Both the position numbers and the translations under genes were made by a program. From positions 1 to 36,318 of the forward strand of contig JAJHRB010000007.1 of the NCBI GenBank assembly GCA_020833025.1: DNA of 36,318 nt. The letters run 5' to 3'. Positions 12,616-23,956 of the stretch are shown here, in pieces. The number at the start of each line of letters is the position of its first letter. The first letter of the stretch is position 1. The DNA comes from Thermoproteaceae archaeon. GTDB lineage: Archaea; Thermoproteota; Thermoprotei; Thermoproteales; Thermoproteaceae. Below the pieces are notes generated by a model, which was not told the origin of the DNA, did no database searches, and saw only the letters and a list, made by a program, of their open reading frames with translations.

Positions 12616-12732
12616 TGGTGGACCGGCCGGGATTCGAACCCGGGATCGCCCGCGCTCTCGGGCGTATTGTGGCACGCCGCGCCAAGCGGGCATCCTTCCG
12701 CTAGACTCGGCGGTCTCGATCTCTACCGGCCC
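12616..12732 (-). tRNA. tRNA-Ala(GGC) with two introns and encoded CCA
   Basis: Exons give GGGCCGGTA-GTCTAGCGGAAGGAT-G-CCCGC-TTGGCGC-GCGGG-CGATC-CCGGGTTCGAATCCCGG-CCGGTCC-A with G3:U70; introns about 12706-12722 and 12655-12679. Confidence 0.88.
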
Positions 12733-13559
12733 TCGCGCCGGTCCTGTGCCCTGATTATCCGCGTTTAAAAAAGTTTTTCGCTTTATCGGCATCCGAGCCA
12801 GGAGATCCGCGCAGGCTTCTCTGCACTCTAGCCCAGGTCGGCCGCTAATAGCAGGAAAACCAGCCTAGTTGGCTAGCAGTATGCGTAAACGGTGCGAGGA
12901 GCTGCGGCGCTGCGTGTATCGAAACCGCCCTCAGGGGCTGCTGGACAGCCCACGGTCAAGGAGCTGGGACCGTGAGCTTGCCTGGGTCTCAGCGGCAGGT
13001 AGGTTAAAGTCAAGGCACTGGGCAGGCCCGCCGATATGCATGCAGTGCCGCGTCAGGATATACGCAGATGCTGAGAGCGTGGCGAGGAAGGCGGTGGGAG
13101 CCGGGCCTCTCAGGGGCATGCATGCCGATAGCCGCCTGATTAATAGCATGCTGGTGATCCGCGTCCACGGCCTGGGCGTGCCGCTTCAGGTCTCTCTGCG
13201 TGAGGCAGGCAGGAGCTGGCGCGCTGACTGTGAGGTGCCGCCTAATGCCGTCGCCGAGCGTCGCGCCGGCCGTACTGCCGGGTGTGCGGGACTGGCGCTC
13301 TCCTGCCGGCGGGGCCAGCGCCACAGAGCCCCTGCCCGAGCCCGCACGAGCCCGCGCCCGTCTCGCCGCAGCGCGGCTCACGGGCGGGCGCCTCGCTGCA
13401 CCATGCAAGAACTTACTCGCGTCGCCACCACAGCCCTCCCCTCTCGCCCTCAGGTTATCGATGGCCCGCGGCGTGCCGGCTCAACATAGTCCATCCGCGC
13501 GGATTTGCACGCGGGGCGCCGGGTTTTGCGTGCCGGCGGAAGTTGAGGGCGTGCGGCTC

Positions 13560-20893: not shown

Positions 20894-22528
20894 GTGAGCT
20901 TTGAGATTGCCGCCAAGGACTTGGCGGCCAGAGTGGGGCGGCTCAGAGTGAAGGGCGGTGTCGTAGAGACTCCCGCGCTCTTCCCGGTAGTTGACCCGAG
21001 AAAGCAGGAGGTGCCTGTCGAGACGCTGAGGAAGTACTTTGGCCAGGTGATAACAAATGCCTACTTCATATACAAGCTTACTGGCGGCAAGACGGTAGAC
21101 GTGAAGAAGTTTATCAAGTGGGACGGCGTTGTAATGACGGACTCCGGGGCCTATCAGATGATACACCGCGGCACAGTTGAAATCGATCCAGATGAGATCC
21201 TGACATACCAGTCGAGAATAGGGAGCGATATAGGAGTCATTCTCGACATTCCGTTTGACTATGAAGAGCCTTACGAGAGCGCGCTGCTCAAGGTAGAGGA
21301 GACGATCAGGAGGGCAAAGCGGGCTGCCACGATGCTGGACAGGTTGGACATGCTCGTCGTCGCGCCGCTGCAAGGCGCTCTCTACACCGACTTGCTCATC
21401 AGGTCAGTCCGCGAGCTATCGAGACTAGGCTTCCACGTATTCGCAATAGGCAGCCCGACGACACTACTCGAAGAATATAGGTTCGACCAAGTACTCGAGA
21501 TTGTGCTGAACGTGAAGCTGAACATGGCACGAGAGGCGCCGCTCCACCTCTTCGGGGCCGGGCACCCGCTGATAATTCCATTCGCCGTGGCTCTCGGCGT
21601 TGACGCGTTTGACAGCGCGTCCTACATACTCTATGCCAGAGACGGCAGGGTCTTGCTGAGAGACAGGACGCTGCGGCTTGACGACGTGAGGACGGACTAC
21701 TTGCCGTGCAGCACTAAACTGTGCGAGATGCCCGTGAGGGAGCTGCTGGAGATGCCCCAGCACGAGCGCACGCTGCTGATAGCAGAGCACAACCTGGCTG
21801 TGATACGGGAGGAGCTGCTTGAAGTCAAGCAGCGCATATATGAGGGCACGCTGTGGGAGTACCTCGAAGTTAAGGCGCGCGCCCACCCCTCGCTCTACAG
21901 GTTCCTCCTGCTCTTGAGACGCTACCGGCACCTGCTTGAGGAGTACGACCCGGAGACGCACCCAAGACCCCACGGGCTGGTGTTTTACGGCGACACGTCG
22001 CCCGCAAGGCCGGAGCCGCTGAGACACCGCACGAGGATGTCGCGCGTCGAAATAAGCGGGAGGGCGGTAATTGTCCTGCGCGTCGAAGAGAAACCGTATA
22101 ACAAGAGCTGGGAGTATCAGTTTGTAAAGAGCATTGCAGGGAGCAGAATTCCAGTGCTCTTCTTCGATCCCACTTTTGGCATAATTCCGGAGGGCATTGC
22201 AGATGTCTACCCGCTGTCTCAAAACTCGTCCGAGGGCGAGAGCGAGGAGGCCAGGGCATTTGCGTACGAGTGGCTGGGCCGCTACGATGTGATACTGGCG
22301 TACGGAGTTGACCTGCCGCTGGCAGGCAAGCGCGTCATAAGACTCAGCTCGCTGGAGGAGATAGCAAACATGCTCTCCCTCAGCCCCGGCAGCCATCCAG
22401 AGGGCGGGGGCCCCGGGACGCCCTATATCCCGGACCGCGCAGTCCCGCCCTCAGGGCCCCCGCGCGCCCCCGCCAGCGGCGGGACTAAAGTGGAGTCAGC
22501 CGTTGAGGGCGGCGCACGCCTTATATGA
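20894..22528 (+). CDS. tgtA: Archaeal tRNA-guanine transglycosylase (TgtA), lacking a recognisable PUA domain
   Basis: MTDSGAYQM, LQGALYTDLLIRSVRELSRLGF, LFGAGHPLIIPFAVALGVDAFDSASYILYARDGR; low-complexity Gly/Pro tail. Confidence 0.93.
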   Translation: MSFEIAAKDLAARVGRLRVKGGVVETPALFPVVDPRKQEVPVETLRKYFGQVITNAYFIYKLTGGKTVDVKKFIKWDGVVMTDSGAYQMIHRGTVEIDPDEILTYQSRIGSDIGVILDIPFDYEEPYESALLKVEETIRRAKRAATMLDRLDMLVVAPLQGALYTDLLIRSVRELSRLGFHVFAIGSPTTLLEEYRFDQVLEIVLNVKLNMAREAPLHLFGAGHPLIIPFAVALGVDAFDSASYILYARDGRVLLRDRTLRLDDVRTDYLPCSTKLCEMPVRELLEMPQHERTLLIAEHNLAVIREELLEVKQRIYEGTLWEYLEVKARAHPSLYRFLLLLRRYRHLLEEYDPETHPRPHGLVFYGDTSPARPEPLRHRTRMSRVEISGRAVIVLRVEEKPYNKSWEYQFVKSIAGSRIPVLFFDPTFGIIPEGIADVYPLSQNSSEGESEEARAFAYEWLGRYDVILAYGVDLPLAGKRVIRLSSLEEIANMLSLSPGSHPEGGGPGTPYIPDRAVPPSGPPRAPASGGTKVESAVEGGARLI

Positions 22529-22699
22529 TCGCTGGCTGCAACAACCCCCGTCCAAAGCAGCCGCGCCTCGTGTGCCTCGGAGAGAAATCGGAGAGAAAAA
22601 AAGAGGCAACAGAAGGCATGGGGAGGGGCTAGGCGCCCCAAACAACTAAAAATTTAAAAATGCGCGGGAAGAGAGGTCCCACCAGCCGCCGCCCGCCCG

Positions 22700-22788
22700 A
22701 CTCAAGGGGCAGGGCTCTCGGCTGCAGGCCGGCCCACAAGACCCTGTGGCGTAGGCCTGCGTGGGTTCAAATCCCACCCCCCGCACCA
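22700..22788 (+). tRNA. tRNA-Leu(CAA) 3' part (D-loop to CCA) with 20-nt intron 22718-22737; 5' half not found
   Basis: CAGGG-CTC[TCGGCTGCAGGCCGGCCCAC]AAGA-CCCTG, class II variable arm TGGCGTAGGCCTGC, T-arm GTGGGTTCAAATCCCAC, acceptor CCCCCGC-A-CCA; promoter AATTTAAAAA at 22651-22660. Confidence 0.75.
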
Positions 22789-22804: not shown

Positions 22805-23956
22805 TCACAGTGCGCTCGTAATTATGTCGGCGACAACCTCACTGGTCACCTGAAACGGCGCATTGCTCTCAAGTGTGCCTCTAGACGTCGCAAGAACTCT
22901 CTCCGCGAGCGCCTTAACATCCCTCTCAGAAAAGCCGTAATCGCCGAGTCTCTCGCGAAAGCCTATCTCTTCCTGGAACCTCGCAATGGCTCTCTCGGCA
23001 TCCTTCGCATACTCCGGGCTGGGCTTGATGTTGGGAGCCAGCGCCCTCAGGACTCTAGCGGAGGTCCCGGGGTCTGCCCGGTGCGTGTAGTACACCGCGC
23101 GCGGGCCCAGCATTCCGAGCCCGCAGCCGTGGGGGAGCCTGGGCTCGAGGCCGCTCAGCACGTGCTCCACCGCGTGCAGCACGTGAACGCGCGACATGTC
23201 AATCGCAATTCCTGCTATCATTGACGCGTACAGCATTTCGTAGCGGAGCTCCAGATTCTTTAGGTCGTTCATGAGAGAGGGCAGAGACCTCGATATTGTC
23301 GCGGCGGCGCTCTCAGCTAGCGTTAGGGTCAGCGGGTTGGAGAGCCTGCCGGTCGCGGACTCGTACGCGTGATAGAGCGCGTCCAGCGAGACGCAGATGC
23401 TCTGCCTCCTGTCAAGCGTTAGCGTGTACCTTGGGTCGTCTACCGACACGTCCGGATACCTCGCGTAAATGCCGACCTTCTCCCTGGTATTCTCAAACGT
23501 GACGACTGCCCACTTGTTGACCTCGCTGCCCGTGCCGTGAGTCAGGTTGACAACTATCAAGGGCACCGCCCTCTTGGCCCTCCTCGCGCCCGTTCTGTAA
23601 TCAGAAACCCTCCCCCCGCTAGCGGCCACGATAGTCGCCAGCTTCGCCGCGTCGATCACGCTACCGCCGCCTATTGCCACTACCGCGTCCGCGCCTTCCT
23701 CCCAGACGGCCCTCGCGAGCTCCTCGGCTTGCGCGGCCCATGGATTCGGCGTGATATTGCTGAACACGGTGTGCTTGATGCCGAGATTGCCGAGCAGTCT
23801 AAGCACGTCGTCCAGCGCGCCGGAGACAGCAGCTGAGGATCTCCCCGACGCTATGACGGCTCTCTCGAAGTGCCGCACGAAGTCTCCAATCTTCTCCACG
23901 GCCCCCGGGCCGAAGAATAGCGTCACGCCGCCGTACTTGAGCTCGAACTTGCGCAC
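22805..23956 (-). CDS. Iron-containing alcohol dehydrogenase
   Basis: AIGGGSVIDAAKL, GTGSEVNKWAVVT, HAVEHVLSGLEPRLPHGCGLGML. Confidence 0.92.
   Translation of the reverse strand: MRKFELKYGGVTLFFGPGAVEKIGDFVRHFERAVIASGRSSAAVSGALDDVLRLLGNLGIKHTVFSNITPNPWAAQAEELARAVWEEGADAVVAIGGGSVIDAAKLATIVAASGGRVSDYRTGARRAKRAVPLIVVNLTHGTGSEVNKWAVVTFENTREKVGIYARYPDVSVDDPRYTLTLDRRQSICVSLDALYHAYESATGRLSNPLTLTLAESAAATISRSLPSLMNDLKNLELRYEMLYASMIAGIAIDMSRVHVLHAVEHVLSGLEPRLPHGCGLGMLGPRAVYYTHRADPGTSARVLRALAPNIKPSPEYAKDAERAIARFQEEIGFRERLGDYGFSERDVKALAERVLATSRGTLESNAPFQVTSEVVADIITSAL

Follow-up and report, generated by a model that had tools for sequence, protein, structure and literature searches.

A putative split tRNA-Leu(CAA) gene in a relative of Pyrobaculum, with 5' halves apparently shared among leucine isoacceptors

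The window analysed here, a whole contig of 36,318 nucleotides from a hot-spring archaeon related to Pyrobaculum, carries a candidate gene for the 3' half of a split leucine transfer RNA (tRNA), tRNA-Leu(CAA). The source genome (G000) comprises 1.56 Mb in 126 contigs and is 93.9% complete, and the window is its contig C34 (36 kb). A class II tRNA with the anticodon CAA is represented at 22705-22788 by its 3' part, which follows a GC-rich leader and a TATA box of its own. The elements of this half are the following.

22646-22659, + strand: TATA promoter of the 3' half (best 14-mer CTAAAAATTTAAAA, centre 22653)
22680-22704, + strand: leader of the 3'-half transcript, its pairing assigned by cofolding with a separate 5' half (half B, described below)
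22705-22717, + strand: first part of the 3' exon, tRNA positions 22-34 (AGGGGCAGGGCTC), the joined body being identical to that of Leu(TAA) of this genome and of the Leu genes of relatives
22718-22737, + strand: cis intron of 20 nt between positions 34 and 35, from direct sequence and a homologous intron in Leu(TAA)
22738-22788, + strand: second part of the 3' exon, from position 35 to the end of the encoded CCA, 100% identical to Leu 3' parts in other Pyrobaculum-group genomes

After the leader follow, in order, the 3' strand of the D-arm, the anticodon stem CAGGG/CCCTG, the variable arm, the T-arm, the acceptor strand CCCCCGC, the discriminator A and the encoded CCA ending at 22788. An initial annotation had described an orphan 3' half of tRNA-Leu(CAA) with promoter, leader and stems, and all these elements are in place. 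The TATA box, assigned there to 22651-22660 with a start near 22681, overlaps the best 14-mer, from which transcription is predicted to begin at about 22679-22681. Scored with a profile built from 44 intact tRNA-Leu promoters, this box reaches 14.3, within their range of 7.9-19.6, and is matched by only 3e-5 of window positions. Its centre lies 52 nt before the exon, as against 27-33 nt in intact genes, which leaves room for a leader of about 24-26 nt. The 20-nt intron annotated between positions 34 and 35 has a bulge-helix-bulge (BHB) motif with the central helix GGGC/GCCC and the bulges TC^T and AC^A, and it is regarded as real because the intact Leu(TAA) gene of this genome (C100:10706-10812) holds a homologous intron at the identical position. 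The boundary of the leader was the part that needed correction: the D-arm 3' strand stands, but CTCA (22701-22704), previously read as D-loop, belongs to the leader. Positions 22686-22698 are predicted to pair with the 5'-half trailer and 22699-22702 (GACT) to form a central helix with exon GGTC, while 22703-22704 (CA) would be the leader's share of the 3' bulge; the trans-splice junction is thus placed at 22704^22705, with the exon beginning at A22705 (tRNA position 22). Neither ARAGORN nor Rfam called a tRNA in the window, and an adjacent cis 5' exon is ruled out there, since the 5' strand GCGGGGGTGNCC has no match in it with one mismatch allowed. The segment GCGCGGG (22663-22669), which would pair with the acceptor strand at the cost of one mismatch, was rejected as a 5' strand: it precedes the predicted start, adjoins the TATA box and has no D-arm.

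The 5' strand that the initial annotation reported missing is indeed absent from the window, but it is present elsewhere in the genome, on contig C89, and its expected form, GCGGGGG-TG-GCCC, is refined to GCGGGGGTGCCC. The genome search proposed in that annotation, for GCGGGGG with a D-arm start, a leader-complementary trailer and a TATA box, yields two loci, both on this contig. Perfect Leu 5' ends occur exactly three times in the genome, at C89:44350 (+ strand; half A), C89:55050 (- strand; half B) and C100:10812 (- strand), and Leu 3' ends exactly five times, one for each isoacceptor: in the window and at C89:48531 (+), C89:53499 (-), C102:3197 (+) and C100:10710 (-). Both ends are found together only on C100, in the intact Leu(TAA), and the remainder are four orphan 3' halves and two orphan 5' halves. 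The orphan 3' halves bear the anticodons CAA (the window), CAG, GAG and TAG, each behind a C-rich leader, and the orphan 5' halves read GCGGGGGTGCCCGAGCCAGGTCAA AGGGGC, followed by a G-rich trailer, GGGCGGGTGGTTAATGGGCGCC in A and GGGTGGCGGGTGCTGCC in B. No intact Leu gene for CAA, CAG, GAG or TAG was found in the assembly, whereas a complete Leu(CAA) without any 5' half had been named beforehand as the sign of a remnant. Contig C89 (67 kb) carries two 5' and two 3' halves; these therefore belong to one organism, and binning error is no explanation. The TATA boxes of the other orphan 3' halves score 14.2 (CAG), 10.5 (GAG) and 14.6 (TAG), and in the four orphan 3' halves the centre of the box lies 50-54 nt before the exon, giving leaders of about 24-28 nt. 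The 5'-half promoters are weaker (3.1 and 5.4), yet correctly spaced, at 28 and 30 nt (28-31 nt when the intact gene is included).

Some further observations concern these loci. A TnpB-like gene (Pfam Cas12f1-like TNB; C89:55546-56826, L273:15547-16827) lies about 500 bp from half B and is a possible agent of rearrangement. When compared with the Leu loci of G004, G009 and G002, the intact Leu(TAA) adjoins a gene that flanks Leu(GAG) in these relatives, and the GAG 3' half (C102:3168-3234) lies near a gene that flanks their Leu(TAA); the two isoacceptors are taken from this gene order to have exchanged loci or undergone conversion.

Intact Leu genes of relatives read GGTCAAAGGGGCAGGG, and joining GGTCAA|AGGGGC at positions 21/22 restores exactly this sequence; the junction of the product reads GGTCAA|AGGGGCAGGGCTCAAGACC, with cuts predicted after GGTCAA and after 22704. 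The earlier suggestion that this tRNA-Leu is trans-spliced, with a split in or close to the D-loop, is thereby supported and made precise. ARAGORN recognises each of the four joined pairs as a tRNA-Leu of 88 nt with the right anticodon (CAA, CAG, GAG or TAG), and both C89 5' halves yield a perfect Leu(CAA) body with the window half. Unconstrained cofolding of the window half with half B recovers the acceptor stem, the D-stem CCC/GGG and a 13-bp trailer/leader helix, and at 37 °C the minimum-energy structure contains a BHB with the central helix GGTC/GACT, a 5' bulge AAAG, cut as AA^A(G), and a 3' bulge CAA(G), cut as CA^A. Trailer/leader pairing was judged both against 6000 random genomic 27-mers and against dinucleotide shuffles, the harsher comparison, which preserves the G-rich and C-rich make-up. 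Across all eight combinations, between 0 and 27 of the random 27-mers paired equally strongly (27 for the window with B), and shuffle P ranged from <0.0005 (A with TAG) to 0.055 (B with the window, the weakest). A search with the trailer pattern by itself was not informative, with 811 forward hits when 3 mismatches were allowed and 957 hits of its reversed control. When the registers -3 to +6 about the shared AAAGGGGC were compared by hand, only 21/22 combined a complementary or nearly complementary central helix with a correct mature tRNA; a split after GGGGC, hinted at by 5' halves that match through GGGGC, fails, as AGGG would face AGGG. The genome encodes one splicing endonuclease gene with the tRNA_int_endo domain (C61:40360-40611, 100 bits), and a search of the genome with the same model found no second, divergent subunit such as the heteromeric crenarchaeal type of enzyme would have.

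Leu genes are unsplit in all complete Pyrobaculum-group genomes examined, and among the nearest relatives G008 has cis introns exactly at 21/22 in four of its Leu genes, for example GGTCAA^AGGGGCGGGTGGTTGCCCGCCCGGCTAG^AGGGGC. The trailer of half B starts with AGGGGCGGGTGG, identical to the 5' part of the intron in two of the G008 genes, and the window leader, CCCGCCC-GACT-CA^A, is laid out like the 3' part of the G008 intron, CCCGCCC-GGCT-AG^A, including the 4-nt 5' bulge. Another 21/22 intron occurs in Leu(CAG) of G014. These introns of G008 and G014 share with the split genes the position, the GGTC central helix, the G-rich/C-rich inner stem (GGGCGGG/CCCGCCC in G008) and an AG^A or AA^A 3' bulge, but there an intron of about 30 nt lies within one transcript, whereas here it would have been opened into a trailer and a leader at unlinked loci. 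In a sister genus, G011 has a single 5' half and five 3' halves, covering every Leu isoacceptor, split at 21/22 and with no intact Leu gene, and G013 (80% complete) has a single 5' half and four 3' halves found, split at the same site; most of these 3' halves hold a further cis intron in the anticodon stem. In a protein tree of the tRNA-guanine transglycosylase (TGT), G000 is nested in Pyrobaculum, the sister genus branches at the base of the family, and the well-supported branches force at least two changes. Apparent deficits of Leu 5' ends in G025, G035 and G044 were rejected as splits, the genes being intact or beginning with a GCGGGGGTACCC-like sequence. In the close relative G007 (74% complete), searches allowing 1-3 mismatches retrieved neither end of a Leu gene, 5' or 3', and in its sole Leu-like piece (C148:262-303) the T-arm is degenerate and contains an insertion; this genome is either incomplete or unusually disrupted. 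In another genus of the order, about 230 bp containing a TATA box separate the two halves of a Leu(UAA) (G029:C63:4977-5271; L264), which share a perfect 13-bp trailer/leader match, GCGGGCCGCGGGG / CCCCGCGGCCCGC, with a junction near 37/38, apparently an independent split or a nearly split gene. A third family contributes an orphan Leu 3' half (G020:C1, about 885-965; L267) with the leader GCGGCCCCGCCCCGCCGCAG before TTAGGACCCGC, and a Leu 5' end at a contig end of the same genome (C10:60892) may be its partner.

The surroundings of the window half bear on its history, and two protein genes flank it.

20894-22528, + strand: TGT, the new upstream neighbour of the 3' half
22805-23956, - strand: gene of the iron-containing alcohol dehydrogenase family (Pfam Fe-ADH), 63% identical to a G004 gene

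The dehydrogenase homologue in G004 faces an intact Leu(CAA) in convergent orientation, and the window half is therefore placed at the ancestral Leu(CAA) locus, with the downstream side retained. The G004 tRNA gene is preceded by a GTPase-like gene and a phosphatase. The window has its homologue of the phosphatase on the far side of the dehydrogenase, and TGT is now next to the tRNA; in P. oguniense TGT does not adjoin a tRNA-Leu. This gene order would fit an inversion that broke within the tRNA gene or at its edge. A second tRNA in the window (12616-12755, - strand) is weak in the tRNA model (26.4 bits), with the acceptor GGACCGG/CCGGTCC and apparently two introns, in the D-arm and the anticodon loop.

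Very probably, the segment 22646-22788 functions as the gene for a tRNA-Leu(CAA) 3' half, the product being trans-spliced with the shared C89 5' halves at 21/22 and the gene having arisen by the opening of a cis intron. The loci, their complementarity, their promoters, the missing intact copies, synteny and the related cis introns are read from sequence; transcription, pairing in the cell, cleavage and ligation are inferred. The promoter of the window half would drive a transcript made up of the leader and the 3' part of the tRNA, and the leader would anneal to the G-rich trailer of a separately transcribed 5' half (B at 55050 or A at 44350). Annealing would form a BHB at 21/22, at which the splicing endonuclease would cut both RNAs before a ligase joins the exons, and the small 34/35 intron would be removed in cis by the same endonuclease. 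The same two 5' halves would serve Leu(CAG), Leu(GAG) and Leu(TAG), each with its own 3' half, so that this archaeon appears to assemble four of its five leucine tRNAs from two RNA pieces, a shared front and differing backs. In the ancestors within Pyrobaculum the gene would have been intact, and a rearrangement would have broken open the cis intron at 21/22, from which the split probably came. Because relatives are intact, G008 has a cis intron at 21/22 and G004 has an intact Leu(CAA) beside the same dehydrogenase, the split is judged to be recent and to have arisen at least twice. Several points weigh against this interpretation. The 5' bulge has 4 nt (or 3 nt plus a bulged G) rather than the strict 3, as also in the G008 cis introns, and the CAG, GAG and TAG 3' halves, whose leaders end GCCC-AG^A, give a central helix GGTC/GCCC with one mismatch, a relaxed motif. 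For these three halves the lowest-energy fold favours a helix that skips the central helix, and with the window half the central helix is not predicted in models at 75 and 90 °C. The promoter of half A is weak (3.1), and in an incomplete assembly of so many contigs an intact Leu gene could be absent, though all five 3' ends are accounted for.

Of the five unlinked 3' halves in the sister genus, all but the GAG half, in which this part is more diverged, are preceded by about 53 nt of nearly identical promoter and leader, and their downstream flanks differ; in G000 the upstream regions of the 3' halves align much better than those of the intact G004 genes (scores of 12.5-30.5 versus 4.5-8.5). 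Near-identical upstream blocks with differing downstream flanks suggest that a promoter-leader block spread between Leu loci. We tentatively propose, at a little below an even chance, a modular leucine decoding in which such a cassette spread among dispersed loci at the 21/22 intron site and turned intact genes into 3' halves that all rely on the same one or two 5' halves; this would have occurred separately in two lineages and have reached all five isoacceptors in the sister genus.

The window half might instead be trans-spliced to a dedicated 5' half absent from the assembly, which the completeness of 94% would allow and which would suit a leader unlike the other three and a pairing with B that is the weakest by shuffle. 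This is unlikely, since A and B both give a perfect Leu(CAA) body, B forms a 13-bp helix together with the correct central helix, and the sister genus serves all five isoacceptors from one 5' half. The initial annotation had also raised a truncated gene or the attachment-site copy of an integrated element, and tRNA 3' ends do commonly serve as attachment sites, Crenarchaea are known to contain partial tRNA fragments (PMC3218864), and the TnpB-like gene near half B could be read in the same sense. No other Leu(CAA) 3' end occurs in the genome, however, and the one in the window keeps its 34/35 intron intact, is preceded by a strong promoter and has a leader that matches the 5'-half trailers; four 3' halves coexist with two 5' halves, the sister genus lives without any intact Leu gene, no complete Leu(CAA) copy exists elsewhere in the assembly and the flanking genes are TGT and the dehydrogenase, so that a dead remnant is highly improbable. 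That an assembler broke or chimerised intact Leu genes at repeated tRNA sequence is a concern proper to a draft metagenome-type assembly, in which identical blocks of 30-50 nt are common to Leu genes. The halves are, however, internal to contigs (C89 and C34), have unique complementary trailers and leaders and promoters at new distances, and the same structure recurs in two assemblies of another genus, at a site that is a cis intron in complete single-contig relatives; an artefact of this kind seems to us extremely improbable.

Split tRNAs are known in Nanoarchaeum, Caldivirga and the Desulfurococcales, where halves may be common to synonymous isoacceptors (PMC4390854, PMC3218864, PMC4033280), and none was reported in the five Pyrobaculum species that were checked (PMC3218864). 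The split tRNA-Ala(CGC) and Ala(UGC) and the split or tri-split tRNA-Gly of Caldivirga maquilingensis, of the same order, resemble the present case in a promoter for each half, GC-rich complementary leader and trailer and the BHB, in the use of one 5' half by the two Ala isoacceptors, and in intervening sequences that resemble cis introns of relatives at the same position (PMC4390854). The present case differs in concerning Leu and in its junction at 21/22; four isoacceptors would depend on two 5' halves, as all five would on a single one in the sister genus, and an extra cis intron interrupts the 3' half. Split tRNA-Asp(GUC) in Aeropyrum and Thermosphaera and tRNA-Lys(CUU) in Staphylothermus are likewise recent, with a complementary GC-rich stem, a breakpoint inside the tRNA gene and an intact orthologue in a neighbour, but these genomes have one split tRNA each, with nearby halves, a junction at 37/38 or 30/31 and no shared halves (PMC3218864). 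Nanoarchaeum equitans also trans-splices tRNA halves, and its Glu(CUC) and Glu(UUC) use one 3' half (PMC4390854), whereas in this relative of Pyrobaculum it is the 5' half that would be shared.

Our literature search, which did not extend to the 2009 Caldivirga paper, found no description of a split tRNA-Leu. To our knowledge, the present case would be the first split tRNA-Leu, and in no other would one tRNA half be shared by as many isoacceptors. What is new in the proposed arrangement is leucine, Pyrobaculum, nearly a whole isoacceptor family and visible intermediates, and it would give Pyrobaculum its first split tRNA. It is still debated whether split tRNAs are relics of an ancestral state or result from late breakage of intron-containing genes (PMC3218864, PMC4390854). 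One archaeal family offers, for one isotype, the whole series of intact genes, a 21/22 cis intron and a split at the same nucleotide, and with this series, the ancestral neighbour still in place and at least two origins, a late origin of split tRNAs would therefore become directly testable.
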